Below, piece after piece: positions 3,226-19,950 of a stretch of DNA of 32,753 nucleotides. Origin of the DNA: Nitrococcus mobilis (GTDB lineage: Bacteria; Pseudomonadota; Gammaproteobacteria; Nitrococcales; Nitrococcaceae); contig JAGFJL010000060.1 of the NCBI GenBank assembly GCA_024102725.1, positions 1 through 32,753 on the forward strand, given 5' to 3'. Under the pieces are notes generated by a model. It made no database searches, was not told where the DNA came from, and was given only the letters and a program-made list of their open reading frames with translations. Within the stretch, counting starts at the first letter, position 1; the number at the start of each line of letters is the position of its first letter. The translations under genes were made by a program, and so were the position numbers.

Positions 3226-3283
3226 GCGACGCCCGCCGTCCCTTTTCTATTACCGCTGATATTTGAGCCCGTATGACCCTATG

Positions 3284-3371
3284 CCTTTCCAGGCTGTCTT
3301 CGTGAGGAGGGTGGCGTGGAAAGGTTTATCACAGCGTTCGTTCAGGACGCCTAAGCGGTAGCTGGCCGTTT
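3284..3371 (+). promoter_or_regulatory. Structured leader element, copy A
   Basis: Two stems define the element. P1 is CCTTTCC (3284-3290) with GGAAAGG (3318-3324), enclosing 27 nt. P3 is AAGCGG (3353-3358) with CCGTTT (3366-3371), around the loop TAGCTGG. A tail, caatcagccctgag, follows. The same order of elements occurs at 7214, 10115 and 13227, with different stem bases and a conserved loop. It lies about 140 nt upstream of the start codon at 3508. Confidence 0.65.
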
Positions 3372-3401
3372 CAATCAATCAGCCCTGAGTCGTATTCAGA
3401 T

Positions 3402-3435
3402 CCCTGCGCGGGAAGGTTTTCTTCCCGCGCACGGG
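3402..3435 (+). promoter_or_regulatory. C-G-C-G leader hairpins of the gene at 3508
   Basis: CCC (3402-3404), GGG (3410-3412), CCC (3424-3426), GGG (3433-3435). The dominant pairing is a perfect 10-bp central hairpin, GCGCGGGAAG (3406-3415) with CTTCCCGCGC (3421-3430). It competes with the two outer hairpins. Confidence 0.6.
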
Positions 3436-3507
3436 AGAGACCTTCACACCGCTCGCGCAGGCTTTTCTTTTTGTTTATGCCCCTGCGGTGGGGTGGAGGT
3501 CATCGAG

Positions 3508-3729
3508 ATGCATAGAACTTTCTGGAAGAACTTGCATCGCTGGCTGGACACGGCCGGTAAGGACGAGATCGAGGCCGCTCGGCTTCGGGTGGAACAGGAG
3601 ATGCGCCGCTACCGCGACGCCGATGTCCGCCGGGAATTCAGCCGCGCCATCCGGCTGATGGACGAAGAGATGTCCGCTAGGAGCGATCTGGCTCGCTTGG
3701 TGGCTGCTCGCGCGAGCCAACCACTCTGA
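3508..3729 (+). CDS. Small hypothetical protein (73 aa)
   Basis: No recognised family. The product is highly charged and helical (RLRVEQEMRRYRDADVRREF), with no membrane segment or cysteine cluster. ATG at 3508 is chosen over the in-frame GTG at 3493 because GGAGG at 3495-3499 stands 8 nt before it. It follows the full composite leader (copy A plus double hairpin), like the first genes of the other units, so it is probably the first gene of an operon that may include ssb. Confidence 0.65.
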   Translation: MHRTFWKNLHRWLDTAGKDEIEAARLRVEQEMRRYRDADVRREFSRAIRLMDEEMSARSDLARLVAARASQPL

Positions 3730-3886
3730 GATCCGCCCGCCGGGTCAGTCGGCGGTCGAGCTTACGGGCCTTCTCGCCCGCGGCCTCGTCGCCGCCGACG
3801 ATGTGCCGGAAGGCGAGGTTGAGAATGCGGTCAACGGTGCGTTCCTTGCCGCCACTCACCATTCGTGGATCGGGTTTCATCGCCAT
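3677..3886 (-). CDS. Possible small basic protein (69 aa), antisense overlap
   Basis: The frame has normal codon use and a charged helical composition (KERTVDRILNLAFRHIV, GEKARKLDRRLTRR). It overlaps the end of the gene at 3508 by 53 bp tail to tail, and only a weak GAGA precedes the ATG. It may be a real convergent gene or an antisense open frame of the kind common at this GC content. Confidence 0.3.
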   Translation of the reverse strand: MAMKPDPRMVSGGKERTVDRILNLAFRHIVGGDEAAGEKARKLDRRLTRRADLRVVGSREQPPSEPDRS

Positions 3887-4062
3887 TCTCTGGTGCTTGC
3901 TCGTGACCCGAACACCATAGCGCCATTGTCAGGATTAGCAAATCTGAACCCACCCCCGACCCAGGCGTGCATATCCCCGGAGAGGGGCGGTGCGCGCTCC
4001 GAGTCGGTAGTCGACGGCGGTTTCCTCCCGTCGTTCTCACCAGCTGTTACGGAGGCCATGGC
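3730..4062 (+). other. Intergenic region upstream of ssb
   Basis: Besides the doubtful leftward frame, it holds a single CCCC-ggaga-GGGG hairpin at 3975-3987, about 75 nt before the ssb start. That is half of the double-hairpin layout seen elsewhere. No -35/-10 pair is convincing. Confidence 0.4.
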
Positions 4063-4548
4063 ATGGCTAGCACTAACAAGGTATTCATCAAGGGCAACCT
4101 GGGCCGCGATCCAGAGTTGCGCAACACCCAGAACGGGCGGTCGGTGTGTTGGTTCAGCCTCGCGACCAACGAGAAGTGGACACAGGATGGCGAGCGCATC
4201 CAGCACACCGAGTGGCACCGCGTGGTCGCCTTCGGCCGTCAGGCTGAGGTGGCGCAGCGGTATCTCGCCAAGGGCTCGGACGTGATTGTCTGGGGTCGGA
4301 TCCGTACGCGCAAGTTCACCGACCAGGACGACGCCGAGCGCTCGATCACCGAGATCCACGCCGACGAGCTCGAGTTCATCGGCGCTCGCCGGAGCGATGG
4401 GCCCGGTCCACGCCAGGATCGTGAGCCGTCGACGAGTCGGCGGTCACGGCCCTCGTCCCGATCTCAACCCCAGTCGACGCGTCGGCCGCAGCCGGCTGCC
4501 GCGTCGGGCGAGGACGAGGAGTTCTTCGAGGACGACGTGCCGTTCTGA
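4063..4548 (+). CDS. ssb: Single-stranded DNA-binding protein
   Basis: 161 aa. The OB-fold spans about residues 1-108, with the family landmarks NKVFIKGNLGRDPELR at the start, a central WHRVVAFGRQAE and a YLAKGSDVIVWGRIRTR strand pair. A disordered Arg/Ser/Gln/Pro linker leads to the acidic tip EDDVPF, matching the DDDIPF-type tip that recruits partner proteins. ATG 4063 is preceded by GGAGG (4051-4055); the upstream ATG at 4058 is in another frame. It coats single-stranded DNA during conjugative entry and recombination. It heads the series ssb, annealing-type protein, RNR-like, nuclease. Confidence 0.97.
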   Translation: MASTNKVFIKGNLGRDPELRNTQNGRSVCWFSLATNEKWTQDGERIQHTEWHRVVAFGRQAEVAQRYLAKGSDVIVWGRIRTRKFTDQDDAERSITEIHADELEFIGARRSDGPGPRQDREPSTSRRSRPSSRSQPQSTRRPQPAAASGEDEEFFEDDVPF

Positions 4549-4587
4549 GCGCGATCCGCTGCCCAGGTAGCACGCGCAACCAATTAG

Positions 4588-4621
4588 CCCCTCCGGGGAT
4601 CGCTCCCGGCGGGGGCGATCC
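4588..4621 (+). promoter_or_regulatory. C-G-C-G leader hairpins of the gene at 4655
   Basis: CCCC (4588-4591), GGGG (4595-4598), CCC (4605-4607), GGGGG (4611-4615). The second half forms an 11-bp hairpin in which GGATCGC (4597-4603) pairs with GCGATCC (4615-4621). It is preceded by caattag, as in the leader at 11392, and lies 33 nt before the start codon. Confidence 0.6.
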
Positions 4622-4654
4622 TTGGTCGGGGCCGTTACTTAAATGGAGCGACCA

Positions 4655-5440
4655 ATGATCGAGATCTTCGACGAGCGCGGCGAGCCGCGGGACTACATGA
4701 CCATGGCCGAGCGCCTACCGGAGTTCCTGAAGCGCTACGGACCAGACCGCGGCTACTCGATTCGGACCCGCGTGCGAGGTCACCTTGGTATGCACCCGGA
4801 CCTGACGGACCTCTATCGGTCTGCGTTGAGCGCCGGTGTGTCGCTGACGGATCTGCCGCCGATCGACATGAGCGTGTTTCGCTTTGAAGCGCAACTGTTC
4901 GATGTCGAGGGCCGGATCGTCGCCGAGGCTTCCGCCCTTCGACGCATTAACACGAGCCTCGAGGCCACCTTCCAAGCCCGCGCTTGGGAGGCGGGCGAGA
5001 CCGCAGCCCTGCAGCGGTTGCTGGCGCGTGTCGGCTACGGCAGTGACACGTTGCTTGCCGACGAGCTGGGCGACATCGACGGGCGTGGCGTGGCCTACGC
5101 CCACGAGCGCGAGGGGCCGGTGATAAGTCGGCAGGAGGGCGATTTGCCCGATTGCAGCGCCAAGACGAGCGAGCCCACCGCCGAGCCGAAGCCGCCGACG
5201 AAACCGCAGGCGTCGAGCAAGTCCGAGGGCGGAATGAAAGCCGAGGGCAAGCCCGAGGCACCGCCGAAGCCCGAGATCTTGCAAAACGAGCCGGACAAGG
5301 CCGCGGAGGCCTCCGAGGCCCTGCTGCGGCAGATTCGCCACCTGGCGAGCGTTCGCGGCATCGAGCCTCCTGCAGTCACAACCAGGGCCGAGGCCAAGGA
5401 GGCACTGAAAGCGTTGCGGGCTACGCCCGCCGCTCAATAG
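4655..5440 (+). CDS. Candidate Rad52-like single-strand annealing protein
   Basis: 261 aa in three parts. Residues ~1-145 form a folded domain with MTMAERLPEFLKRYGP, a beta-rich stretch (FRFEAQLFDVEGRIVAEASALR) and ETAALQRLLARVGYG. The last two recall the Rad52/Sak-type pattern of a strand with a DxxG turn followed by a helix ending in an L..hGhG element. Residues ~150-225 are a Lys/Glu/Pro linker. The end (LLRQIRHLASVRGIEPP, then TRAEAKEAL) resembles small C-terminal helical domains of phage recombination proteins. It sits between ssb and a nuclease, where SXT-like elements carry bet. The start at 4655 has GGAG 6 nt upstream; the ATG at 4643 has none. The family call is inference. Confidence 0.5.
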   Translation: MIEIFDERGEPRDYMTMAERLPEFLKRYGPDRGYSIRTRVRGHLGMHPDLTDLYRSALSAGVSLTDLPPIDMSVFRFEAQLFDVEGRIVAEASALRRINTSLEATFQARAWEAGETAALQRLLARVGYGSDTLLADELGDIDGRGVAYAHEREGPVISRQEGDLPDCSAKTSEPTAEPKPPTKPQASSKSEGGMKAEGKPEAPPKPEILQNEPDKAAEASEALLRQIRHLASVRGIEPPAVTTRAEAKEALKALRATPAAQ

Positions 5441-5528
5441 GGTGATCTACCTCTTAGGCTTCGTTTGAGCCGGATGCGAGCGCCATCGCCGATGCCCTCG
5501 TGGTGTGTCCGTTCCGGGCGGAGATTCG

Positions 5529-6119
5529 ATGCTCGGCACGACTACTACGAGCCCAAAGGAGCCAAAGACCGGCCCCGACCGAACCATGGCCTGGAGCGTG
5601 GATGTCGTCAACCCCAGCACGGGGGATGACTTCGTGCTCATGGTCAAGGAGCTGGTGATGCCCGATGGCGGCCGCCGGCCGTATTCGGCCTGACTGGCTG
5701 GCGAGTATCCGCGGGTGCTCGATGGGCTTGCGAAGAGCCTGTCCTTCGACATGCGGGTGCTCGATGTGGCCTGGATCGGTGGGAAGCTCGTGCAGCTTCT
5801 CGGCTACGCCGAGCCCAGGGGCGATTTCATGGCCCGCGTGCCGGGGAAGGAGCGTCAGCAAACGTTCGCCTCCACCGTGGCCTACATCGCCCGGCTGCTG
5901 CTCCACCGTTACGCCATGCTCGGTCTACTCGACGAGCAGGGCCTGCCGGTGGACGCCATGGGGCTGACCGCCAGCGACGAGGCCGGCGAAGCCGACGCGC
6001 CGTCGAGCCAAGCAATGGCCACTAATCGGCTGTGCCGGGACTGCGGGCACCGCGCGGTGGTCCGCCACGATGGCTGCGATCATTGCCGCGCCTGCGGCGC
6101 CGTCGGTGATTGCGATTGA
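5529..6119 (+). pseudogene. NrdJb-like (TSCPD plus zinc ribbon) RNR-type gene with in-frame TGA
   Basis: A single frame of 196 sense positions is interrupted by TGA at 5691-5693 (codon 55); the frame does not shift. Before it come strands ending in MPDGGRRPYSA. After it come EYPRVLDGLAKSL, VAWIGGKL and ASTVAYIARLLLHRY. The C-terminus is a zinc ribbon, CRDCG followed by GCDHCRACGAVGDC. This matches the C-terminal TSCPD and Cys-rich tail of class II ribonucleotide reductases, encoded separately as NrdJb in some Pseudomonas. Trp (TGG) would fit at the stop position. ATG 5529 has GGAG 5 nt upstream. The downstream part could restart at GTG 5715, but no RBS is seen there. Either a fresh nonsense mutation, readthrough, or a sequencing error explains it. 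Confidence 0.65.
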
Positions 6120-6225
6120 TTCGGCGTTTTCGTGGGCGCCTGTCACGGGCACCCAAATACCCACTTCATTAGAGGCGGTTTCAGCCCGCCTGCCTGAGCT
6201 TCGGGCTGTAACCTTCACTTTAAAT

Positions 6226-6260
6226 CCCCGGTCGGGGCGCATGCGCTCCTATCGGGGAGC
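6226..6260 (+). promoter_or_regulatory. C-G-C-G leader hairpins of the nuclease gene
   Basis: CCCC (6226-6229) with GGGG (6234-6237), then GCTCC (6245-6249) with GGAGC (6256-6260). Upstream in the same 187-nt gap a further stem, CAGCCCG (6182-6188 region) with CGGGCTG (about 6202-6208), precedes an AT-rich patch. The start codon is 46 nt downstream of the last hairpin. Confidence 0.55.
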
Positions 6261-6306
6261 GATGCGTCTCCGGCCGGGCGATGGACCACCAGGGAGGGGC
6301 ATCCTC

Positions 6307-7179
6307 ATGGAGATCAGCTTTTCAAGGCTGCATAAGTATGAGACCTGCGGCGCCGCGTACCACTATTACTACGTGCGTGGTCTGCGGCCCGAGCAGGTCT
6401 CGGCGAACTTGCTCTTCGGTAAGGTGCTGCACAAGGCCAAGACCGATTACATCAAGGCCCACGCGCTCGGTGAGACGGACGACCCGGCTGCCATGTTCGA
6501 ACGTGAATGGGCGCGGGCGCTGGGGCAGACGATTGTCGGGTTCTCAGCCACCCAGAGCCCAGAAGCGTTCCATGACACGGGCGTCGCGCTCGCCCGCGAG
6601 TTCCCCGCGTTCTGGGAGAGATCGGGGCTTACGGCGCTCATCGGTCCGGGCGGCCAGCCAATGGTCGAGCAGAAGCTCACCGTCGAGATCGTACCGGGGG
6701 TAGATCTGCGCGGGTACATCGACCTGGTGGCGCTCACCGCCGATGGCGAGATGGCGGTCATCGACCTGAAAACCGCGATGACCCCTGCGCCGGAGGCGAC
6801 GCTGCTCATCGGTGAGCAGCTTACCGACTATCAGATCCTCGCGGACGCCAACCGGCAGCGGCTTGGCATAGAGTCGATCGCCAGGGTCGGTTTCATCGAG
6901 CTGCTCAAGCGCCAAGTGTCCAAGACCGGCCGTGGCAAGGGCCCGGAGATCGTCGGGCCGACGCTCGCCCCGCCACGAACCGAAACCCTTGTCAGCGAGC
7001 GTCGCGAGAAGATCGACCACCTGGTCACTCAGATCCGCAAAGGCGCGTTCTTTCGTAACCCGGGCATGGCGTACAACACGCCATGCTCTATGTGCGAGTT
7101 CAGAAACCTGTGCCTGCACGGCTCCATGGAGGGACTGGCCAGGCCCGCCGAGGCGAAGGTCCAGCTCTCCGCTGTGTAA
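6307..7179 (+). CDS. PD-(D/E)XK nuclease, Cas4/AddB-RecB type with Fe-S cysteines
   Basis: 290 aa. Catalytic-type residues are visible: H42 in LFGKVLH, E121, D139 in GYIDLV, D153-x-K155 in VIDLKT, and Q171-x3-Y175. Four cysteines (C14, C260, C263, C269, the last three in PCSMCEFRNLC) have the AddB/Cas4 spacing expected for a [4Fe-4S] cluster joining the two ends of the domain. Family members are 5'-3' or 3'-5' exonucleases. Next to ssb and a candidate annealing protein, it probably resects DNA for recombination. ATG 6307 follows GGGAGGGG by about 8 nt. No helicase domain is fused. It takes the place that lambda-type exo has in SXT/IncC elements. Confidence 0.85.
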   Translation: MEISFSRLHKYETCGAAYHYYYVRGLRPEQVSANLLFGKVLHKAKTDYIKAHALGETDDPAAMFEREWARALGQTIVGFSATQSPEAFHDTGVALAREFPAFWERSGLTALIGPGGQPMVEQKLTVEIVPGVDLRGYIDLVALTADGEMAVIDLKTAMTPAPEATLLIGEQLTDYQILADANRQRLGIESIARVGFIELLKRQVSKTGRGKGPEIVGPTLAPPRTETLVSERREKIDHLVTQIRKGAFFRNPGMAYNTPCSMCEFRNLCLHGSMEGLARPAEAKVQLSAV

Positions 7180-7191
7180 GCGCACCGATCT

Positions 7192-7213
7192 GCCCGCCCC
7201 TTCGGGGGCGGGG
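7192..7213 (+). terminator. Terminator-like UUCG hairpin after the nuclease gene
   Basis: CCCGCCCC (7193-7200), loop TTCG, GGGGCGGG (7205-7212), followed at once by cctttcc. The only T-rich tract is that of the P1 stem of element B, so terminator and P1 may be alternatives. It starts 13 nt after the stop codon. Confidence 0.55.
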
Positions 7214-7306
7214 CCTTTCCAAGCGCTGCCGCTCGCGCCGGGACGCTCGGAAAGCCCCTGCCTTCTGCGGTGCTTCTTACGAGCATACCCCGTGGTAGCT
7301 GGCCAC
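7214..7306 (+). promoter_or_regulatory. Structured leader element, copy B
   Basis: P1: CCTTTCC (7214-7220) with GGAAAG (7249-7254), enclosing 28 nt, in which AGCG and CGCT can form an inner stem. P3: GTGG (7292-7295) with CCAC (7303-7306) around the loop TAGCTGG. The tail atcaaccagccctgaag follows. The stem bases differ from copies A and C but still pair. Confidence 0.65.
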
Positions 7307-7346
7307 ATCCATCAACCAGCCCTGAAGTCCACTGACTCCAAATCCA

Positions 7347-7372
7347 CCCCGGCGGGGGCAGCCCCGGCGGGG
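7347..7372 (+). promoter_or_regulatory. C-G-C-G leader hairpins of the gene at 7416
   Basis: CCCC (7347-7350), GGGG (7354-7357), CCCC (7362-7365), GGGG (7369-7372), with 3-4 nt loops. This is the most compact and regular case. It ends 43 nt before the start codon. Confidence 0.65.
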
Positions 7373-7415
7373 CGGCCCTCGGCCTTTGCGTTGATGCAAC
7401 AAAGGAGGCTCCGAG

Positions 7416-7949
7416 ATGGCAAGTGTATTGGCACGTGCCGGCCCGTCCGCGGACTGGACCGAGCACCCGCCGAGCCAGATGAGCCTGGCGTTGCCGGTCC
7501 TCTACGACGGGCATCGGCCGAGGAAGAGCGGGCGGCGTAAGCCGCGGCGTCGCCAAGAGGGTGCAAAGGCACCGGTGCAGCTCGACTTCCACGATCTGTT
7601 CGAGCAACTCGTCGTCGAGGAGGAGTTCGCGGAGCAGGCTGCCCGGGAGCTCAATGCGATCGACGGCGAGCCCGATGCCGAGCCGTGGAGCGAGGAAGAG
7701 GTGTACAGGCTGCATACCTTCCTGCTCGAGCGCTCGCTGGAGGTTCTCGCCGACACCCGCACCAGCGCGGCGACGGTGATGGAAATCCTCGACTGGATGA
7801 GCGAGACGCCCGCCCAGCGCGCGAAGGGTATCTCGTTTGTCACCTGCTGCGAGATCCACGGATACGACGCCGAGGAGCTACGCGAGCAGGTTCGCTATGA
7901 AGTCGGCCGCCTGCATGGCGTTTGGGCCGCGCAGGCGTTCATTGACTGA
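7416..7949 (+). CDS. Conserved-context hypothetical protein (177 aa)
   Basis: No family recognised. The N-terminus (~50 aa) is Pro-rich and then strongly basic (RPRKSGRRKPRRRQEG), likely nucleic-acid binding or disordered. The rest is acidic and helical (LFEQLVVEEEFAEQAARELN, WSEEEVYRLHTFLLERSLEVL), with a Cys-Cys pair in FVTCCEIHGYD. The ATG has an ideal AAAGGAGG at 7401-7408. It is first in a unit with the CobS-like ATPase and the WGR-like gene, all in the same direction with short gaps, so it may work with the ATPase. Confidence 0.75.
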   Translation: MASVLARAGPSADWTEHPPSQMSLALPVLYDGHRPRKSGRRKPRRRQEGAKAPVQLDFHDLFEQLVVEEEFAEQAARELNAIDGEPDAEPWSEEEVYRLHTFLLERSLEVLADTRTSAATVMEILDWMSETPAQRAKGISFVTCCEIHGYDAEELREQVRYEVGRLHGVWAAQAFID

Positions 7950-7957
7950 CCCATTAA

Positions 7958-7998
7958 CCCCCACCGGGGAGTCGCGCTCCCCGGCCGTGGCGGGGAGT
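7958..7998 (+). promoter_or_regulatory. C-G-C-G leader hairpins of the cobS-like gene
   Basis: CCCCC (7958-7962), GGGG (7966-7969), CCCC (7979-7982), GGGG (7992-7995). The middle CTCCCCG can pair either backwards (CCGGGGAG with CTCCCCGG) or forwards (CTCCCCG with CGGGGAG). The two hairpins therefore exclude each other. It lies 33 nt before the start codon. Confidence 0.65.
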
Positions 7999-8030
7999 GC
8001 CTTCCTCTCTGTTGAATCGGAGGCATGCCA

Positions 8031-8999
8031 ATGAGTAATGCAAAAACGGTCGAGTTCGACATCGGCGAGACCTTCGGCGTGGCCGAGGCCCGCGGCATGA
8101 AGATCGAGGGCTTCGAGGATGCCGGGAACCGTTTCGTGCCCAAGGCCATTGAGGGCTATGTCCATCGCCGGGAATTGCTCTCGGACATCGTGGCGTGGCT
8201 GAAGATCGGCAAGGACGAGGGTCTGCTGCTGGTCGGGCCGACCGGTTGCGGCAAGACCTCGGGTGTTACGCAGGTCCTGGCGCGCCTGCGCTGGCCGACG
8301 CAGCGACTCGCTGCCCACCGGCGCTTGGAGTTCTCGGATTTCACCGGGCACTACACCGTGGTGGACGGTGACATGGTGTTCGTAGACGGCCCACTGACGA
8401 GCGCGATGCGGTATGGCCAGGCCTTCGTTCTCGACGAGCTGGACATGCTCGACCCCGGCGTAGGCGCGAGCCTGAACACGGTTGTCGAGGAGGGCGTCGT
8501 CGCCATCGCCGAGAACGGCGGGGAGGTCGTCGAGGCCGCCCCGGGCTTCCGTTTCATCGCAACGGCCAACACCGCGGGCAACGGCGATCGCACGGGCCTC
8601 TACCAGGCCGTGCTGCGTCAGAACGCGGCCTTCCTCGACCGCTTTTGGGTCGTCGAGGTCGGCTATCCGGGCGAGGACCAGGAGCGCTCCATACTTGCCG
8701 AGCGGGTGCCGGACCTGCCGGGCTGGGTGCGAGAGAAGATGATCGAGGTCGCCCGCGAGCTCCGGGGGCTATTTATCGGGGATACCGAGGGTCCGCAGAT
8801 CGAACTGCCCATGTCCACCCGGACGCTCACGCGTTGGGCGCGGCTGAGTCTCTCATTCCAGGGTGTAGCAAAGGCGGGGAAAAATCCGCTGCTGCACGCG
8901 CTCGATCGGGCATTCCTCAATCGGGCGCTCCCCGAGACCCGGGAGGCCGTTCACGGAATCGTCGAGCGGGTGATCGGCCAGGATGTGAGCTTCGACTAA
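8031..8999 (+). CDS. CobS/MoxR-type AAA+ ATPase
   Basis: 322 aa. Walker A GPTGCGKTS (69-77), Walker B FVLDELD (132-138), sensor 1 IATAN (176-180) and an arginine-finger candidate in FLDRF (R204). It is close in layout to CobS, the ATPase of aerobic cobaltochelatase, and to MoxR proteins, which remodel a partner carrying a VWA domain. The likely partner is the CobT-like protein at 11468. No cobalamin genes are nearby and the pair travels with ssb and recombination genes, as in SXT/IncC elements, so a chelatase role is unlikely. ATG 8031 fits GGAGG 7 nt upstream; the ATG at 8025 is too close. Confidence 0.9.
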   Translation: MSNAKTVEFDIGETFGVAEARGMKIEGFEDAGNRFVPKAIEGYVHRRELLSDIVAWLKIGKDEGLLLVGPTGCGKTSGVTQVLARLRWPTQRLAAHRRLEFSDFTGHYTVVDGDMVFVDGPLTSAMRYGQAFVLDELDMLDPGVGASLNTVVEEGVVAIAENGGEVVEAAPGFRFIATANTAGNGDRTGLYQAVLRQNAAFLDRFWVVEVGYPGEDQERSILAERVPDLPGWVREKMIEVARELRGLFIGDTEGPQIELPMSTRTLTRWARLSLSFQGVAKAGKNPLLHALDRAFLNRALPETREAVHGIVERVIGQDVSFD

Positions 9000-9011
9000 G
9001 GGAGTCGGGCC

Positions 9012-9746
9012 ATGCAGGGATATGAGCTGATCTACGAAGGCACGGACTCGCCTAAGGGCAAGGTCTGGCGCATCGCGCCCGTCTCCGACGGCTCGGGGCT
9101 GCGCATCGAATACGGTGCCCGCGGGGCGAGACTGCGTTCGGTGTTCGTTCCCATCGCCAGGTGCGATCGCCGGAGTTGGGCCTTGGAGATGTCGCACCGG
9201 GTCGATGCGAAGGTCGAGGAAGGCTATGCCATCTCGAGAACGGATCTGGAGCCGGTTGAACCCGGCGGCGCCGGCGGACAGAACGAGGAGAGCATGGCCG
9301 GCGAGCCGGCACTGCTGGCCCATGTGGGGTTCGCGCCCGTCTCACGCTCGCGCCGCACGGTCCTCGATGAGCGGGTCGAAGGCCATTTGCGATCGCTCGT
9401 CGAGCGCGCCTGCAAGCCCGGCACGCATGCCGTGACGGCCACGGCCACCGGGTTCAGCGTCCGAGGCCATTTCCATGGCGCTGGCGCCGCCGAGGCTGTG
9501 ACGGTCCCCACGAGTATCGGCTGCACCCTCCGCGAGGGCCAGCGCACGCTGGGGCTGTTGCTTGCTTCGCTGGCACGGGCCTTTCCGGAGCTGGTGCGTC
9601 TTGCGAACGACAAGGGCGACGAGCTATCGCCCCGCGAACTGGCCGAGACCATCGACCCCGACCCGGCGGTGCTGGAGCGATTCGGTATTATCCGGACGAT
9701 CAAACTGGGCCAGCAGGCTCAACCGCTTGGACACTGGTTCTTCTGA
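9012..9746 (+). CDS. WGR-like domain protein (244 aa)
   Basis: Residues ~5-75 resemble a WGR domain: LIYEGTDSPKGKVWRI, a conserved-type turn IEYGARGARLRS and EEGYAI at the end. WGR domains bind nucleic acid in PARPs and in some MoxR/VWA-linked bacterial proteins. Residues ~100-244 form a second domain I do not recognise, ending in GHWFF. It starts 12 nt after the ATPase stop with GGGAG upstream. WGR, MoxR and VWA proteins are known to cluster together, which supports a joint function with the genes at 8031 and 11468. Confidence 0.65.
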   Translation: MQGYELIYEGTDSPKGKVWRIAPVSDGSGLRIEYGARGARLRSVFVPIARCDRRSWALEMSHRVDAKVEEGYAISRTDLEPVEPGGAGGQNEESMAGEPALLAHVGFAPVSRSRRTVLDERVEGHLRSLVERACKPGTHAVTATATGFSVRGHFHGAGAAEAVTVPTSIGCTLREGQRTLGLLLASLARAFPELVRLANDKGDELSPRELAETIDPDPAVLERFGIIRTIKLGQQAQPLGHWFF

Positions 9747-10114
9747 CCGAAGGAGATGTAGGGCACGGCCGTAGGGCCGCCTTGCCACCCTCGCCGCTGC
9801 TCGTGAGCGGCTGCGGGCGGCGTGAAGCTCAACCAGCCCGAGTCGTCGCGCATTTGGGACCGCGCGGGCGACTACGACCGACGGGAATCCATAGGCACTC
9901 CGGGGTGCTTCTCCATCCCTGAGCCTGCGTCGTGTAGCGACGCGCTCCAGTGCTGCCCATGAAAACCCCTTCGGCCCATTGACGAGAAGGGCGGGTACCC
10001 GCCGAGACGTCCGCTTGTGGTGAGGTGGCCGGTGCGCGAGTGCCGGCTGCCCCACCGGAGGCGGCATGAGCCGTCGGCGCCCGTGCGTGTGCGGCTTTCC
10101 GGGTCGCTCCGGGG

Positions 10115-10193
10115 CCTTTCCTCAACGCCCTGTGCGATTAGGACGCTGAGGAAAGGCAGACCACACTCGTGTGGCGCGGTAATGCCGGCCGCG
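10115..10193 (+). promoter_or_regulatory. Structured leader element, copy D (variant loop)
   Basis: P1 is an 11-bp stem: GCCTTTCCTCA (10114-10124) with TGAGGAAAGGC (10147-10157), enclosing 22 nt. P2 is CCACA-ctcg-TGTGG (10161-10174). P3 is CGCGG (10175-10179) with CCGCG (10189-10193) around TAATGCCGG, a variant of the usual TAGCTGG loop. The spacing to the start codon, 218 nt from P1, resembles copies A and B. Confidence 0.55.
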
Positions 10194-10249
10194 GCCCTTT
10201 ATACGGCACGCAATTCCGAGGCACGACAGCATGTCTGCCGTGTGCTCGG

Positions 10250-10285
10250 CCCCATGAGCGGGGATGGTTCTCTCCCCGCCAGGGG
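10250..10285 (+). promoter_or_regulatory. C-G-C-G leader hairpins of the DUF3150 gene
   Basis: CCCC (10250-10253) with GGGG (10260-10263), then CTCCCC (10272-10277) with GGGGAG (10282-10287). The start codon is 47 nt downstream. Confidence 0.6.
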
Positions 10286-10332
10286 AGATGGACCGTCGCC
10301 CGGGTTGTTACCGGCAACGGAGGTAATGGTCC

Positions 10333-11373
10333 ATGACGCAGCAGACACAGGCGCACGCACAGACGCTGGACTCGCTGGTCTGCGTGGTGCTCGATGTCCA
10401 CCTATGGTCGGGGCGGCGCAAGCTCACCCCGAAAGACCTGCAAAAGGTCGCTCCGGAGAACCTGCCGCCACAGGATCTCGCCTCACTGGGCTCGAAGAAG
10501 ATCTGTGACCCCGGCGAGCTCGCCGAGTTCGGACGGCTCAAACGCCAAGCTGAGCGCGTGCTGCTGGAGACGGGCTACCGATTCCTCGGTGGCTATGGCA
10601 TCCCGGCGGATAAGCTCGATGAGGTGGCCGCGGCACTGCAAGCTCTGCGCAGCGAGTTCGAAGCCTACAAGGCGGGTTTTCTCTCGCGCTACGACCAGAC
10701 CGTTGAGCGGTGGGTCTCTCGCCATAGGGAGTGGGAGAGCATCATCCGTAAGGCCGTCACCCCACCGGAGGATGTTGCCGAGCGGCTTCGCTTCGACTTC
10801 CGCGTCTTCCGTGTGGCCCCGGCGGGCAATACGGACGCCGGCGAGGATTCGCTCCTCGACGGCTCGTATCACGCGATTGTACGTGAGACCGCGCGTGCCG
10901 CGTGCGAGGCGTGGGAGCGGACATTCAAGGGCAATGCGATCGTGACCCAGCGGGCGCTGCGCCCTATCCGGAAGATGCGCGAGAAGTTGAACGGCTTGAG
11001 CTTCATCGACCCGCGTATCTACCCGGTCGTCGAGCAGATCGACGAGGCGCTCGCCGCCTGCCCGAGGACCGGCAAGATCGAGGGTGGCCCACTTACGGGG
11101 CTGCACTCGGTGGTGCTCCTGCTCGCCGATGCCAAGCGGATGGTGGCCCACGGGGAGGCGGTCATCGGCAATGCCAATGCGGCAGCTACGCCCACGGCGC
11201 AGGCCGACAAGGCCTCAGCTGAGCCGTCCGCGCAGAACCAAACGCGCGAGGTCATTCCCCAGACCGAAGCCGAACCCGAGCAGGAACCCGAACCGGAAGC
11301 TGATCCCGAGCCGGAGGCACCCGTGCCTGCAGGCAGGCGGCCTGCGACGTCCGGCGACGGACTGTTCTTCTAG
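10333..11373 (+). CDS. DUF3150-family protein
   Basis: 346 aa. The N-terminal ~280 residues match what I know of DUF3150 proteins: an opening LDSLVCVVLDVHLWSGRRKL, then a Cys-containing KKICDPGELAEF, a GGYGIP turn and long helices to about 280. The last ~65 residues are an acidic Glu/Pro tail ending in GDGLFF. The biochemical role is unknown. DUF3150 genes sit between CobS- and CobT-like genes in ICEs and plasmids, as here. GGAGG precedes ATG 10333 by about 8 nt. The gene forms a unit with the CobT-like gene 95 nt downstream. Confidence 0.8.
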   Translation: MTQQTQAHAQTLDSLVCVVLDVHLWSGRRKLTPKDLQKVAPENLPPQDLASLGSKKICDPGELAEFGRLKRQAERVLLETGYRFLGGYGIPADKLDEVAAALQALRSEFEAYKAGFLSRYDQTVERWVSRHREWESIIRKAVTPPEDVAERLRFDFRVFRVAPAGNTDAGEDSLLDGSYHAIVRETARAACEAWERTFKGNAIVTQRALRPIRKMREKLNGLSFIDPRIYPVVEQIDEALAACPRTGKIEGGPLTGLHSVVLLLADAKRMVAHGEAVIGNANAAATPTAQADKASAEPSAQNQTREVIPQTEAEPEQEPEPEADPEPEAPVPAGRRPATSGDGLFF

Positions 11374-11391
11374 GCCACCGCAAGTCAATTA

Positions 11392-11440
11392 CCCCGTCGA
11401 TCCGGGGCCGTGCTGAATCACCGCACGCCCCGATCGGGGG
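11392..11440 (+). promoter_or_regulatory. C-G-C-G leader hairpins of the cobT-like gene
   Basis: CCCC (11392-11395) with GGGG (11404-11407), then CCCC (11428-11431) with GGGG (11436-11439). The outer arms cgcacg and cgtgc extend the second stem. It is preceded by caatta, as in the leader at 4588. Confidence 0.6.
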
Positions 11441-11467
11441 CGTGCCCTTTCATGCGAGGTCGTGAAG

Positions 11468-13189
11468 ATGCCAGAAAACATGAAGACATTTATCGGCTCG
11501 CTGCCGATCGTCGCCAAGGCTATCGGCCGACGCTACGGAGTGCACGTCAAGATTGGCGGCGCTAGGGCGTTCACTGACGGCAATGTCATCCACCTGCCGG
11601 CACTGCCGGAGGATGATCCGCAGGCAGAGGTGCTGGTCAACGGCTACCTCGATCACGAGGCGGCCCATTGCCGGTTCACCGATTTTACCGCGAGGCATTC
11701 CAGCAACGTGATGCAGCGCTGGCTGGAGAACGCGCTGGAGGACATCCGCATCGAGTCCCTGATCGGACGCTACTACCCTGGGTGCGGTCGTCACCTTGCG
11801 CGACTGGTGGAAAAGCTGGTGCGGGATGGCGACGACGCGCCGCTGAAGGATGACGCAAGCGAGGCGGCGGTGCTATCGGCCTACGTACTTCGGCGGCTGC
11901 GCTACGAGGTGCTGGGCCAGGATGCTTTGGAAGAGCTGGCCGTGCAGGCAAGCGAGCGCTTCGAGGCGATGTTCCCGAAAGGGCTCGGCATCAAGCTCAC
12001 GGCCATAATGGCCGAGATCCGCGGGGCGACGTCGACGAGGGAGGCGATTGCGATCGCCGCGCGCATCAGGGAGCTGCTCAACGATGAGGCGGAAGAGGCC
12101 CCGGAGTCGAACCCCGACGGCCAGGCCACTGAGGGTCGCGATGGTGGGGACAGCCTGAGCCAACCGGATGCCTCGTCGGGCTCCGACTCGCACGATGGTG
12201 ACGACGCTGAGTCTGGCAGTGCCCATGGCGCCGATGACGGTGACGCCGACGCCGAAGGCAGCAACTCGGATGGCACCACCGACAAATCACGCCGGCAAGC
12301 CCTGCAGGCAGCCCTGAAAGGTGGCGACGGCGACTTTGAGCAGGATATCGGCGGCAAGGTCGCCAGCAAGCTCGAAGACGCGGCCGATCCGCACGGCTGC
12401 CCGAGAATGGCCGAGGCGGACGACGAGGCCACGGGAGCGGGCAGTGATCCGGCCGGTATGGACACCGGAGAGGTCATCGACGAGACGGCTGTACGCCAGG
12501 CAACCGCGCGGTTGCGCTCGCGTCTGGCCGGCGTGATCCAGACCGAGACGTTAGTGCAGACCTCGCGCTCGCGGGCGGGCAAACGCATTGATCGGCGCAT
12601 GCTGCCAAGGCTCGGGCTTGCCGATCCCCGGGTGTTCCGTTCCGAGACCGAGGAGACGCGTGTCGACACCGCGGTAACGGTGCTGCTCGATCGCTCCGGC
12701 TCCATGCGCGGAGCCGAGATCGTGGTTGCCCGGGAGGCCGCACTGGCCGTCGAGTATGCTTTCGAGGAGATCGAGGGAGTCAGCCCTAGCGTTTTCGCCT
12801 TTCCGGGTAGCGGCGGTGACAACCGCCGGGTGCGGACCTTGCATCGACGAGGCCGCCGTGTGCAGCCACGTAGGTTCGGTATTTCAGCCGGCGGCGGCAC
12901 ACCGCTGACCGAGGCAGCGTGGTTCGCCGGCTGGGATCTCCTTACGGCAAGCGAGCCGCGGAAGATCCTGATCGTCATCACCGATGGCCACCCTGACGAC
13001 TTCGACAGTGCGGCGGATGTGCTAGCGCGCATGCGTGCCAGCGGTATCGAGACACTGGGTATCGGGATCCATACCGGGATTCAGCCGAAGCTGATTCCCG
13101 AGAGCCGCCAGATCGACGACGCTGGCGAACTCGCTGGCGCATTGTTCGATTTGCTCGAGCGAAAGCTGGCCACCGAGGTGGCCGCTTGA
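11468..13189 (+). CDS. CobT-like protein with HExxH and VWA domain
   Basis: 573 aa. The N-terminus has DHEAAH (62-67), an HExxH zinc motif, followed by NALEDIRIE (88-96), the signature of the CobT-like metallopeptidase/VWA group. Residues ~210-345 are a long acidic Asp/Ser/Gly-rich linker. The C-terminal VWA domain carries the MIDAS motif DRSGSM (D408, S410, S412), a GGGTPLTEA loop, and VITDGHPDD. With the CobS-like ATPase it should form a MoxR-VWA remodelling pair; the HExxH suggests peptidase activity or a structural zinc. ATG 11468 is 8 nt after GAGG; the GTG at 11462 is too close. Confidence 0.88.
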   Translation: MPENMKTFIGSLPIVAKAIGRRYGVHVKIGGARAFTDGNVIHLPALPEDDPQAEVLVNGYLDHEAAHCRFTDFTARHSSNVMQRWLENALEDIRIESLIGRYYPGCGRHLARLVEKLVRDGDDAPLKDDASEAAVLSAYVLRRLRYEVLGQDALEELAVQASERFEAMFPKGLGIKLTAIMAEIRGATSTREAIAIAARIRELLNDEAEEAPESNPDGQATEGRDGGDSLSQPDASSGSDSHDGDDAESGSAHGADDGDADAEGSNSDGTTDKSRRQALQAALKGGDGDFEQDIGGKVASKLEDAADPHGCPRMAEADDEATGAGSDPAGMDTGEVIDETAVRQATARLRSRLAGVIQTETLVQTSRSRAGKRIDRRMLPRLGLADPRVFRSETEETRVDTAVTVLLDRSGSMRGAEIVVAREAALAVEYAFEEIEGVSPSVFAFPGSGGDNRRVRTLHRRGRRVQPRRFGISAGGGTPLTEAAWFAGWDLLTASEPRKILIVITDGHPDDFDSAADVLARMRASGIETLGIGIHTGIQPKLIPESRQIDDAGELAGALFDLLERKLATEVAA

Positions 13190-13203
13190 GCATTTAACCC
13201 AAA

Positions 13204-13227
13204 GCCCCCGATCCCTTTGGCGGGGGC
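13204..13227 (+). terminator. Terminator-like hairpin after the cobT-like gene
   Basis: GCCCCCG (13204-13210) with CGGGGGC (13221-13227), followed by the weak T-tract of cctttcc, which is also the P1 strand of element C. The arrangement equals that at 7192-7220. Confidence 0.55.
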
Positions 13228-13317
13228 CTTTCCAGGCCGCCTTCTGTGTATCCGATGAGGGCGGTGCGGAAAGGCCTTCCCTGGTCCCACCGGGAAGCTC
13301 GGCGGTAGCTGGCCGCC
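13227..13317 (+). promoter_or_regulatory. Structured leader element, copy C
   Basis: P1 extends to 9 bp: GGCCTTTCC (13225-13233) with GGAAAGGCC (13268-13276), enclosing an inner GCCGCC/GGCGGT stem. P2 is TTCCC/GGGAA (13277-13296) with an inner GGT/ACC. P3 is GGCGG (13301-13305) with CCGCC (13313-13317) around the loop TAGCTGG. The following caaccaagcag is a weaker match to the tail. Confidence 0.65.
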
Positions 13318-13461
13318 ACAACCAAGCAGCATTGAATGAGCAAGGAGTCCGAAACGCCGCTCGAATCTGGCGGAAACCTGCCGCCCAAGCCCGGTGTTTC
13401 AACATCTGCCGGCACGCGCCGCGCGCTAGCTTGGCCGGTGTGTAATGCCGGATACCAACCA

Positions 13462-13538: not shown

Positions 13539-14642
13539 ATGGACGAGCAACTCTCGGAGAGGATTGTGCGCCTGGCCGCCGGGCGCTGGCCGGCTATATT
13601 CGGCCGGCTGGCACCGGTCGAGCTAGGCGAGGCAATGCATCGAGCCCCGCGGCATGTGCGCTGTCCGGTCCACGGTGGCGTGCATAACGATGGGTTCCGG
13701 CTGTTCCGGAACTACCCCGAGACCGGCGGCGGCATCTGTAACACCTGCGGTGGTCATTCCAACGGGATCAGTCTGCTGGCCTGGTTGAAAGGCATGTCTT
13801 ACGCGGACACGCTCAGGACGCTGCTCGACGAACTGGAGGGACAAGGAGCGAGCTTGCCTTCCCCGCCTCGTAAGAGCGGCGCCGAGTTGGAGCGGGAGCG
13901 TCAGGCCCGACTGAAAGAGGACCGGGCGCTCGCCAACCGTATCCGCCGTGTTTGGCGAAGCGCGTTGCCGCTCGATGACCGACGGGCCGAGCCGGCTCGG
14001 CTGTACTTCGCCCGGCGTGGTCTGCGCGTCTACCACAAGCCGCGGGTGCTGCGATTGCATCCGGCTCTCGAGTACAGCGAGGACCGCAAGGTGGTCGGGC
14101 AGTTTCCGGCGCTCGTGTTCCGCGTATCCGATGAGCGCAATTGCTCGGTGACACTGCATCGCATCTACCTCGATCACGAGGGCAGAAAGGCGCCCGTGGT
14201 CGAGCCGAAGAAGCTGATGGCATACCCGAGCGGCTTTCGGACTTTGACCGGGGGCGCCATCCGGCTGACACCGGCAAGCCGGACGCTCGGCATCGCCGAG
14301 GGACCGGAGACCGCGCTCGCGATCATCGAGGCCACCGGCATGCCGGTCTGGTCGGCCATTTTCACCACCCTCATGCGCCGGGTTCAGCTGCCCAAGCAGG
14401 TCTCCCGTGTCATTGCCTGGATGGACAAGGATGCCAACGGTGCCGGCCGGCTGGCGGGTCAGGCGCTCTGCGAGCGGATGTGGTCCGAGGGGCGTCGCGC
14501 GGGCGCGGTCGCGCCGCCGCTCGCCGTCAAGCCGGGTTCCGGTTCTGCCGACTGGCTGGATGTCTGGAACCGGCTTGGCCGAGCGGGCTTTCCCGAGTGG
14601 CTGCGGGACCCTGATTCGGACTTCCGCAGCGCAGTGTCATGA
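13539..14642 (+). CDS. Toprim-domain primase (zinc finger plus DUF7146-like)
   Basis: 367 aa. A CHC2-like zinc-binding site is formed by C42-x2-H45 and C67-x2-C70 (RCPVHGG and CNTCGG). A middle domain (RLYFARRGL, then LHPALEYSED) leads to a Toprim core with the glutamate in GIAEGPETAL (E254) and the DxD motif MDKDANGAG (D296, D298). Such proteins act as primases of plasmids, ICEs and satellites, priming the complementary strand of transferred DNA. ATG 13539 follows TGGAGG. It is first in a unit with the gene at 14639, behind leader copy C. Confidence 0.88.
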   Translation: MDEQLSERIVRLAAGRWPAIFGRLAPVELGEAMHRAPRHVRCPVHGGVHNDGFRLFRNYPETGGGICNTCGGHSNGISLLAWLKGMSYADTLRTLLDELEGQGASLPSPPRKSGAELERERQARLKEDRALANRIRRVWRSALPLDDRRAEPARLYFARRGLRVYHKPRVLRLHPALEYSEDRKVVGQFPALVFRVSDERNCSVTLHRIYLDHEGRKAPVVEPKKLMAYPSGFRTLTGGAIRLTPASRTLGIAEGPETALAIIEATGMPVWSAIFTTLMRRVQLPKQVSRVIAWMDKDANGAGRLAGQALCERMWSEGRRAGAVAPPLAVKPGSGSADWLDVWNRLGRAGFPEWLRDPDSDFRSAVS

Positions 14643-16321: not shown

Positions 16322-16846
16322 ATGTCATACGAGCAGAGCGATACCCTGACCGGCATTCGTGATCGCGTCCATGCCGCCGAGCTGATCAGCCGTGGGCTGC
16401 GAATCGCGGCAGTTCGCAACATCCTACCGGGCGTCTATCGATGCGAGCTATCCCGGCTGTGGCGCGAGATACACCCCCTGAGCTCGACGCCATCCGGTCG
16501 GCTGCCCAACGGCAGCGCGAGCGTTATCCGTACCCATCTCCATTCCGCGATCGCCTCGGCGATGCTGGTGGAGTACATCCGGGCGAGCAGCGAGCGTGCT
16601 GGGTGCGTCGATGTCACGGCACTGTGCGTTGCCTGGGATACGCTTCTCGGCAGTGCCGAGTGGTCGGAGGAACTGGCTGATTTTGTGGACATTAACGTCA
16701 TCTGGCTCCTCGCCCGTGACTATCATGCCAAGCTGGTTCGGCTGGCGGAGTGTCCCCGGTGCCGCAGCCGGCGGCTCTTTTGCACGCAGTGGGACGCGCG
16801 CTCGAAACTCATGAAATGCCCGCACTGCGCTCTGGCGAGCACGTGA
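16322..16846 (+). CDS. FlhC-family transcriptional activator (SetC/AcaC-like)
   Basis: 174 aa. The FlhC layout is visible: an N-terminal helical part, the segment CELSRLWREIHPLSSTPSGR (41-60) matching the FlhC pattern R..L..LY.E..G..P.KG, and a C-terminal zinc site C144-x2-C147 and C166-x2-C169. FlhC binds DNA with FlhD. In SXT and IncC elements SetDC and AcaDC are FlhDC-like master activators of transfer. GGAGGG precedes the ATG. It is followed by a terminator-like hairpin and the tra genes, which it may control. Confidence 0.82.
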   Translation: MSYEQSDTLTGIRDRVHAAELISRGLRIAAVRNILPGVYRCELSRLWREIHPLSSTPSGRLPNGSASVIRTHLHSAIASAMLVEYIRASSERAGCVDVTALCVAWDTLLGSAEWSEELADFVDINVIWLLARDYHAKLVRLAECPRCRSRRLFCTQWDARSKLMKCPHCALAST

Positions 16847-16873
16847 AACCCCCGCAGGTGCGGCGGGGTTTCA
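16844..16873 (+). terminator. Terminator-like hairpin after the flhC-like gene
   Basis: TGAAACCCC (16844-16852) pairs with GGGGTTTCA (16865-16873). The hairpin includes the stop codon TGA. T-tract support on the + strand is poor (gccaaaaaag), so termination efficiency is uncertain. Confidence 0.55.
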
Positions 16874-16908
16874 GCCAAAAAAGACCGCCCCGCCACCTCT
16901 AGCATGGG

Positions 16909-17931
16909 GTGATGCGCGCGGAAATCTGCAACAGGAAATTGACCGCCGCTGTGCTGGCGGCGGGTCTGCTCGTTGCCGAGCCGCCGGCGGCGCTCGCCGG
17001 GCCGTTTTTCGATAACCCGCCCCCACAAGGGTGGTTCTGGTACAGCCTGCTACCCGAGCCGCCACCGGAGCCACAACCGGAGCCCAAGCCGCCGATGACG
17101 GCGAAGGAGCGAGCGGCACCCGCCAAGACGACGACCGCTCCGCCCGGGTCGGCGGTGTTCTCCGCCGCCTGGCTGCGCGAGCACCTGCCTAAGTACCGCA
17201 ATCGCGCGATAGACAGGCCCACTCGCGAGAACGTGCTTGCCTACATGTTTCTGCAGCGCCTGGTGATGGACAAAAGCCAGCGTTTCGCCGATGCCGTGCA
17301 GTCCGTAGTAAAGACCACCCCGGTGCTCGACGCGAGCACCCGACGGCCGATCAGCTCGCTCGGCGCCCGACTTGCCAACCGCCGTGCCGAGCAAGCGCGA
17401 GACCGGATAATGACTAAGCTCGCCGACAGGCTCGGCGTGTGGTTTTTCTACTCCGGCGCCGAGCGCTGCGCTTACTGCGCCGCGCAAGCCGGCATTCTGC
17501 AGGGCTTCACCGAGATCCACGGCATCCCGGTTACGGCCATCGCGCTCGACGGCTCGCCACCGCCGACGGGCTTCGACGAGGCCAAGGTCGATCGCGGACA
17601 GGCGAGGCGTCTGCGCATCACTACGCCGCTGGCATTGGTGCTGGTCAATCCGGCCACACGCGAGGTCATCCCCCTTGCCCACGGACTTCTCACGCGCGAT
17701 CAGCTTGTGGCGCGTATCGTGCTAGCCGCGCACACGGCGGGTTGGCTCTCCGACAACGCGTATAACCGCACACGGCCGATGCGAGCGGACGATCTCCTGG
17801 CTCCCCGGGATAACCCCGGCGAGACAACTCCCGCGGCGGACACTTCGGCGCTGCCGATAAGCCCGGCGGAGATCCTGCGGCATCTGCGGATCAAGCCGGC
17901 CACCCGGCTGCCCGAGGACGGCGATGAGTAG
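16909..17931 (+). CDS. traF: Conjugal pilus assembly protein TraF (thioredoxin-like)
   Basis: 340 aa. A signal peptide (basic start, LTAAVLAAGLLVA, cleavage near ALA-G) exports it to the periplasm. A Pro/Glu-rich linker follows, then the TraF family domain with WFFYSGAERCAYC, containing an intact CxxC at C187/C190. Together with TraH and TraG it belongs to the F-type mating-pair formation system. The CxxC suggests oxidoreductase activity on TraH or other disulfide proteins. The start may be GTG 16909 or ATG 16912; no strong RBS separates them. The C-terminus overlaps the next gene. Confidence 0.9.
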   Translation: MMRAEICNRKLTAAVLAAGLLVAEPPAALAGPFFDNPPPQGWFWYSLLPEPPPEPQPEPKPPMTAKERAAPAKTTTAPPGSAVFSAAWLREHLPKYRNRAIDRPTRENVLAYMFLQRLVMDKSQRFADAVQSVVKTTPVLDASTRRPISSLGARLANRRAEQARDRIMTKLADRLGVWFFYSGAERCAYCAAQAGILQGFTEIHGIPVTAIALDGSPPPTGFDEAKVDRGQARRLRITTPLALVLVNPATREVIPLAHGLLTRDQLVARIVLAAHTAGWLSDNAYNRTRPMRADDLLAPRDNPGETTPAADTSALPISPAEILRHLRIKPATRLPEDGDE

Positions 17932-19908: not shown

Positions 19909-19950
19909 CGCTGCCCCTCTGCGCCCATAGCGATACGGGAACCCACTGCC

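Follow-up and report, generated by a model that had tools for sequence, protein, structure and literature searches.

What is a structured sequence doing in front of four successive gene groups of one conjugative element? The question is posed by a stretch of 32,753 nt from Nitrococcus mobilis (contig JAGFJL010000060.1 of assembly GCA_024102725.1, positions 1 to 32,753, forward strand), here called the window. A first-pass annotation had described four composite leaders in it, each built of a stem P1, a variable hairpin (P2) and a hairpin P3, and all three parts were located at all four places. The P1 pattern CCTTTCC-N10-40-GGAAAG occurs in the window at these four places only (7 strand matches), against 0.03 expected from 100 shuffles. 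From the copy starts at 3284, 7214, 10115 and 13227, the distances to the first genes of the four units, at 3508, 7416, 10333 and 13539, are 224, 202, 218 and 312 nt, in agreement with the 200-310 nt first given. The placement before genes of an ssb/cobS/DUF3150/primase module likewise holds: it recurs in several conjugative elements, often in multiple copies.

The core is probably an H-type pseudoknot

The P3 stem-loops lie on the forward strand at 3353-3371, 7292-7306, 10175-10193 and 13301-13317. They are present in every copy but form only half of a structure whose other half had been overlooked. In copies 1, 2 and 4, a strand complementary to the loop (TCAGC, CCAGC and GCAGC, respectively) begins 7-10 nt past the P3 stem, and the reading of these three copies as H-type pseudoknots is well supported but not proven. 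The pairing was proposed because the consensus of Rfam family RF02959 (DUF3085 RNA) has UAGCUGG in a hairpin and CCAGCC downstream. The pseudoknot of copy 1 would span 3353-3383, with stem S1 at 3353-3358/3366-3371, the loop TAGCTGG and the downstream strand S2′ (TCAGC) at 3379-3383. That of copy 2 would span 7292-7320 (S1 GTGG/CCAC, loop TAGCTGG, S2′ CCAGC at 7316-7320), and that of copy 4 13301-13330 (S1 GGCGG/CCGCC, loop TAGCTGG, S2′ GCAGC at 13326-13330). The sequence GGTAGCTGGCC is exact in these three copies, which have 34 nt in common around GGTAGCTGGCC..CAGC at 79-82% identity; with two mismatches allowed it is found 13 times in the window, against 13.5 expected by chance. The differing loop TAATGCCGG, first assigned to the fourth copy, belongs by position to the third (10115).

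The order of the core is constant: S1 of free sequence, a TA-GYUGR loop, an A-rich spacer and a CAGC strand that pairs with the loop. Among 40 distinct sequences, both sides of S1 vary at all five pairs, and the stem contains a few G-U pairs. The covariation score of the whole structure is 0.583, compared with 0.181 for shuffled alignments and at most 0.122 for slid controls. S2, the pairing of loop and downstream strand, shows double changes in three of its five pairs, a result matched by 1 of 500 shuffles. These changes amount to four cells in three sequences: A-U at columns 14-36 in the copy of SXT (GCUA:UAGC), A-U at columns 11-39 in L069 10583 (ACUGA:UCAGU), and A-U at columns 15-35 in both L033 19899 (GCUGA:UCAGC) and L069 10583. 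The sequences bearing them were recovered through a search model, R1, that is blind to S2. The inner four S2 pairs are present in all 40 sequences, for which the early scans had selected. Covariation above shuffled and slid controls, as a structured RNA family should show, is found in five of five S1 pairs and, weakly, in three of five S2 pairs. The four P3 stems from which RNA structure had originally been argued are weak evidence on their own; the homologs bear the conclusion out. The spacer is 69% A in 28 unique early instances, which would fit its placement in the minor groove of S1. A pseudoknot scan with any S2 sequence allowed gave 11 matches against 8 in reversed sequence and was uninformative.

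Homologs in other mobile elements

Instances were initially collected by pattern. In an early scan, plasmids carrying a related DUF3150 gene were searched for S1, TAG[CT]TGG and a partner strand downstream, and those of Geoalkalibacter, Marinobacter and Azospirillum proved to contain the core. The scan gave 14 matches, compared with 6 when the sequence was reversed and 0-2 in each of five Markov controls. Of these 14, five were discarded as chance, and R1 later recovered one of the five (L033 17865). A second scan, of genome_contigs, asked for the loop flanked on each side by G or C at two positions and for the downstream strand, with no pairing required; it yielded 35 stretches, 11 of them with an S1 of at least 4 bp (Devosia L064 among these). 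The other 24, which include copies of one repeat in a Geopsychrobacter MAG, were discarded. Three pattern scans of viral_contigs gave 0, 2 and 1 stretches, all judged chance, and a DUF3150 protein scan found no relatives among viral or genome contigs.

Model R1 was built from alignment A2 of 27 copies; the counts given here rest on alignments A2 and A4, with A3 left out, its row L007:9480-9511 being misaligned. At E <=5, R1 returned 43 matches in 936 kb, the last four weak. In further plasmids it found seven copies in pRA1 (IncA/C), one in pR997 (an SXT/R391-type element), two in a P. aeruginosa plasmid (PA83, L033), one of these at E 0.02, and one in a Methylomonas plasmid. In all, 47 matches (40 distinct sequences) were obtained, in 23 of the 24 sources searched. 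These comprise pRA1, an SXT/R391-type integrative and conjugative element, Geoalkalibacter, Azospirillum, Marinobacter, Methylomonas, Vreelandella, P. aeruginosa and elements in metagenome-assembled genomes (MAGs). The highest number per contig, 9 copies, is carried by a gammaproteobacterial MAG contig (L069, L070).

A second model, R2, was trained on 29 copies with those of the window, SXT and PA83 excluded. In 392 kb it recovered the window at 13298, 3351 and 7288, SXT at 10845 and PA83 at 19899 and 17857, and no further match up to E = 5, in the window or elsewhere. Copies 1, 2 and 4 are found at E 2e-5 to 3e-3: copy 1 scores 30.7 bits (E 1.2e-4; 38.8 bits with R1), copy 2 24.9 bits (E 0.0029) and copy 4 34.2 bits (E 1.7e-5). 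Copy 3, at 10175-10208, was missed by both models. It has S1 CGCGG/CCGCG, the loop TAATGCCGG and a possible S2 UGCCG:CGGCA, in which CGGCA at 10204-10208 complements the differing loop; such a match arises in about 10% of random tests.

Under stricter filters, R1 over 369 genomes of the window's class gave the genome of origin and two weak matches; the element is therefore sparse. The region around the SXT copy occurs in 4 records of a plasmid collection numbering 72,556 and in 7 E. coli genomes out of 5,426. DUF3150 is present in 6 of 274 class genomes, and stretches from the five others reached at best 13.9 bits with R1. Six DUF3150 plasmids (W07, W08, W09, W11, W12, W13) had no R1 match or weak ones, none convincing.

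Three further observations concern possible or repeated copies. A probable second Marinobacter copy at L007 9480-9511 (AGGT-TAGCTGA-GCCT, then ACAGC), ahead of 9583, was seen in the early scan only and missed by R1. In a MAG contig, identical copies with identical shown flanks at L073 15078-15113 and 15609-15644, 531 bases apart, mark a local duplication. A repeat in a Geopsychrobacter MAG (L035, L039, L047, L052, L057, L065) and in Geothermobacter (L048) reads TAGCTGG..ATAACCAGCA with an S1 of 2 bp and is probably an unrelated mobile repeat.

Relation to DUF3085 RNA and other known leaders

No Rfam family reaches its gathering score in the window. The closest is DUF3085 RNA (RF02959), which is cis-regulatory by Rfam type and matches copy 2 at 21.1 bits in a permissive scan, against a gathering score of 40.6. 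By that threshold the element is not DUF3085 RNA; it is a possible distant relative. The likeness resides in a hairpin CGGuAGCUGG..CCG followed by AAcCCAGCC, so that the loop is identical and a pseudoknot possible. The alignment of copy 2 runs over its full length, with a shared CGGUAGCUGG-like hairpin and CCAGCC; the copy carries both the UAGCUGG hairpin and the downstream CCAGCC, and the loop and a CAGC strand, with variants, are found in the 47 matches. RF02959 differs by a larger loop, a longer spacer and an extra hairpin after CCAGCC (GuCC..GGaC), the last poorly aligned in copy 2.

Permissive RF02959 scans of L006, L007, L070, L073, L078, L084 and L098 revealed no core of another copy. 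A whole-record search at E <=10 found copy 2 and a match in W02 at 77267 (16.8 bits), starting 15 nt behind a copy of pGSUB1, and no other core; it also gave matches in 8 of 14 control genomes. RF02959 had no match in 299 phylum genomes; across 190 genomes from the class to which an Azospirillum belongs it had a single sub-threshold match (29.5 bits), judged chance by eye. The other permissive Rfam matches were chance-like, except for a group II intron in L006. A DUF3085 match is absent from the 30 window proteins scanned. The pRA1 module does contain a DUF3085 gene (PF11284), the third gene behind a copy, and the element is absent from the three DUF3085 gene loci examined.

Other known leaders offer partial parallels. 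The put RNA of phage HK022 acts in cis as a leader of tandem structures and enables polymerase to read past terminators; it has two hairpins without this pseudoknot and is not known to be repeated along one operon. The leader of phage T4 gene 32 is an H-type pseudoknot ahead of an SSB gene, unlike the present copies, which precede several kinds of genes and not ssb alone. Copy 4 reads GGCGGTAGC, resembling the start of the RfaH ops element, GGCGGTAGCGTGC; identity with ops was rejected, as the homologs keep the TAGYTGR loop and not GGCGG, and S1 and the flanks change freely. Among the papers listed by literature searches on DUF3085, DUF3150, leader or pseudoknot and the SXT operon, none described the element, and some effects of the SXT s089 leader may be in print; the passages of PMC3118119 consulted contain nothing on the leader.

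Gene context and spacing

The genes that follow the copies form a recurrent set. The next gene is ssb in L077 and, behind a small open reading frame (ORF), in L081; in SXT it is s089, which stands before ssb. It is cobS-like in L006, L069, pRA1 and PA83, the DUF3150 gene at window copy 3 and in L007, L070, pRA1 and PA83, and primase at window copy 4 and in L070; other copies precede genes of no assigned function. Each run of genes would constitute one operon, as judged from gene order; for SXT the operon is named in the part of PMC4344509 consulted. In 27 of 31 instances the copy and the next called ORF share a strand, by crude calls in which several copies overlap ORFs that are mostly antisense and probably spurious. 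In pRA1, copy and next annotated gene are co-stranded in all seven cases. The spacing from match to annotated start is 66-104 nt for six of these; the seventh has 12 nt, its start perhaps being wrong. On the MAG contig it is 65-97 nt in six of seven cases, and the seventh, at 245 nt, is the first of a tandem pair. Tandem copies occur at L006 10080/10174 and L070 12125/12299.

Stable hairpins stand between the pseudoknot and the Shine-Dalgarno sequence. Shine-Dalgarno pairing is not raised behind copies, with a mean of about 0.52 for the seven pRA1 genes against 0.60 for other module genes. Sequestration of this site as the read-out was rejected accordingly: module genes stand at 0.59 and other pRA1 genes at 0.48, but the copy-following genes are not raised.

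Upstream hairpins and terminators

On the forward strand, as for P3, P1 lies at 3283-3324, 7211-7257, 10114-10157 and 13225-13276, and P2 at 3334-3350, 7271-7285, 10161-10174 and 13277-13296. Both are more stable than shuffled sequence (P1, mean z -1.9, 23 of 41 copies below -1; P2, mean z -1.6, 26 of 41), with no conservation of letters. In pRA1, P1 reads GCTTTCC..GGAAAGC in two copies and nearly so in two more, resembling that of the window.

Ahead of P1, some copies have a further GC hairpin, P0. In the window it is found at copy 2 (7193-7213), where P1 takes its 5′ strand from the C/T tail of P0, and at copy 4 (13204-13227), both on the forward strand; each has too few T to count as terminator-like. 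An attenuator had been suggested from this overlap. The T-tract of the GC hairpin does serve as the 5′ strand of P1, but the attenuator as described is unsupported, because P1 forms only after polymerase has passed the GC hairpin. Of 41 copies, 15 have a P0-like terminator upstream (1.2 in shuffles). Terminator-like hairpins are found downstream of 6 of 41 (0.8 in shuffles) and, farther upstream in mostly coding sequence, at 5 of 41 (2.0 in shuffles). The copies adjoining the acaB-type gene in pRA1 and SXT have no P0 by the terminator-like criterion.

Terminator-like sites inside units stand out in pGSUB1, while the signal is faint in pRA1 and Marinobacter. Among co-directional gaps of pGSUB1, terminator-like sites occur in 9 of 15 in the module and 3 of 15 among transfer genes; without the two copy-holding gaps the module retains 7 of 13. 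Strong sites inside pRA1 stretches lie at L098 16337, 16945 and 28687. Some of the counted sites are hairpins of the element itself.

Several hairpin arrangements were noted in passing. Before the cobS-like gene of Marinobacter (L007 10120-10193) is a terminator GGGGAACC..GGTTCCCC with T9, and an alternative hairpin CCCTAACGGG..CCCGTTAGGG uses the terminator's strand, an attenuator-like arrangement. In the Geoalkalibacter module (L006 10220-10480, 11811-11995 and 15415-15584; L081 13669-13835 and 14252-14410), a large hairpin of the CCCGGGG..CCCCGGG type precedes several genes, in many cases together with a U-tract some 90 nt ahead of the start; another hairpin lies near the Shine-Dalgarno sequence. 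The gene junctions of the window have GC hairpins that look similar by eye.

How the leader may act

We tentatively favor a reading in which P1, P2 and the pseudoknot form a 5′ leader of the ssb/cobS/DUF3150/primase module genes that helps polymerase read through terminators along a long operon, with a probability of roughly 0.36. In the first unit, an activator of the SetCD/AcaCD type would start transcription, and the nascent pseudoknot would then alter the elongating polymerase in cis. The UAGYUGR loop, the A-rich spacer and CAGC may form the face contacted by polymerase or by a trans-acting factor. Polymerase could thereby pass the terminator-like hairpins within the unit and the P0 hairpin ahead of the next copy, where the effect would be renewed. 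Such a relay, in which each copy takes polymerase through the terminator guarding the next and the firing of the activator turns on all genes of the DNA-processing module together in IncA/C, SXT and related elements, is doubtful as a complete scheme. It would account jointly for leader position, the multiple copies per gene run, P0 and the terminators inside units. Action in cis on expression is likely, and antitermination itself is the weakest step.

Several observations weigh against this reading. Transcription of the copies, although likely, is a prediction. Copy 3 is divergent, fits the pseudoknot pattern poorly and stays unproven. S2 is near-invariant, so that its covariation score taken singly is equalled by 51 of 500 shuffles, and its outermost pair is broken in 15 of 40 sequences. 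The first instances were picked by scans that demanded no fewer than 4 bp of S1 together with the four inner pairs of S2, a selection that raises paired percentages and leaves the variety of S1 pairs unaffected. By the terminator-like criterion, P0 is lacking at 26 of 41 copies, and where present it could simply end the preceding unit. Terminator-like sites are only slightly in excess in the pRA1 module, with 9 of 28 gaps there and 4 of 18 outside it, and three of those nine sites are hairpins in copy-holding gaps, leaving 6 of 22; Marinobacter has 3 of 14. A U-tract terminator between pseudoknot and gene was looked for at the seven pRA1 copies and none was seen. The next ORF is on the opposite strand in 4 of 31 instances (three short ORFs and one of 337 aa at L083). 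An AcaCD box consensus has no match with up to two mismatches beside the first copies of pRA1 and SXT. Finally, the steady spacing in pRA1 is easier to reconcile with local action on the following gene than with processive action.

Such a local effect is nearly as likely as antitermination. Here a protein or small RNA would bind the pseudoknot and alter translation or stability of the adjoining gene, with one copy per gene. The short, steady distances in pRA1 and on the MAG contig, the separate copies that single genes have ahead of them (tandem in two cases) and the stable hairpins ahead of the Shine-Dalgarno sequence all suit this explanation, which leaves P0 unexplained and would lead one to look for higher Shine-Dalgarno pairing behind copies than is found. 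Function at the DNA level, with the hairpins acting in double- or single-stranded DNA as an operator, a primase or single-strand initiation site or a single-stranded promoter, is unlikely. Conjugative elements of this kind do transfer a single strand, the module encodes SSB and primase, and several elements have, next to the first copy, the gene of an AcaB-type protein that presumably binds DNA. An operator, however, is not expected to retain pairing while its sequence changes; the few G-U pairs of S1, the preservation of loop and downstream strand in an H-type pseudoknot whose spacer is A-rich, and the prevalence of leader positions on the gene strand also speak for RNA.

Membership of the copies in DUF3085 RNA, beyond that family's known range, would agree with the end-to-end alignment of copy 2 and the DUF3085 gene of the pRA1 module, and is likewise improbable in view of the sub-threshold score, the failure of permissive and whole-record scans to list the core of any other copy and the three DUF3085 loci that lack the element. 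Least probable is a metabolite riboswitch of the H-type pseudoknot class. Size and topology recall preQ1-I type aptamers, but the downstream genes serve DNA replication and recombination or are unassigned, with no metabolic pathway among them, and the window copies match none of the riboswitch families in Rfam.

IncA/C plasmids and SXT/R391 elements spread resistance genes. Among the papers listed by literature searches, none named RNA-level control of their recombination and replication module. A pseudoknot leader common to elements of Gammaproteobacteria, Alphaproteobacteria and Desulfuromonadia would add a new regulatory layer to conjugation and offer a wider frame for DUF3085 RNA. The activators AcaCD and SetCD are well studied (PMC4207636, PMC4344509).

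Neighboring genes and minor features

The module genes of the window are on the forward strand. The unit behind copy 1 includes ssb (4063-4548; PF00436). A PD-(D/E)XK nuclease gene (6307-7179; PF12705) precedes copy 2, and the unit behind that copy contains a cobS-like AAA ATPase gene (8034-8999; PF07728, PF08406). Directly behind copy 3 is the DUF3150 gene (10333-11373; PF11348), followed by a CobT-like VWA gene (11468-13189; PF06213, PF11775), and directly behind copy 4 is a primase/toprim gene (13539-14642; PF08273, PF13362, PF23639). Farther along is an FlhC-like activator gene (16322-16846, forward strand; PF05280), of SetC/AcaC type by family. Together with TraF, TraH and TraG_N genes, it marks 16322-23280 as part of an SXT/MPF_F-type conjugative element. 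Two overlapping frames, 16909-17931 and 17924-18499, match TraF, the second by the C-terminal half only.

On the reverse strand, divergent from the module and about 1 kb from copy 1, lies the gene of an AcaB-like protein of the SXT s063 family (1165-2382, with a true start that may be nearer 2118), 36% identical to the pRA1 member. The family's model matches the AcaB structure 6n8a (TM ~0.86), and AcaB is a ribbon-helix-helix DNA-binding regulator. An AcaB-type gene adjoins a copy divergently in SXT, pRA1, pGSUB1, Azospirillum and a MAG, and on the same strand in Methylomonas; no copy was found beside it in Marinobacter and PA83, nor did a search for a diverged copy beside it in L007, L033 and the window find one. 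AcaB-type proteins are present in 10 of 11 copy-bearing sets and 2 of 7 others, by remote matches and over partial stretches only. The protein co-occurs with the element but, presumably binding DNA, is not proposed as its RNA partner. The SXT copy sits in the s063-s089 gap, as assigned by gene order. According to the consulted part of PMC4344509, SetCD binds between s063 and s089, the latter being the first gene of a large recombination operon; in that of PMC4207636, AcaCD promoters are mapped by 5′ rapid amplification of cDNA ends, with no clear signal at vcrx098.

Two minor features complete the picture. A weak R1 match (12.7 bits, E 0.17) at 2721-2761, between the AcaB-like gene and the module, comprises a hairpin, an A-rich spacer and CCAGC without the matching loop, and is perhaps a decayed copy. 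Within the leader of copy 1, the segment 3402-3473 can adopt mutually exclusive pairings, GCGCGGGAAG..CTTCCCGCGC or CCTGCGCG..CGCGCAGG-CTTTTCTTTTTG.

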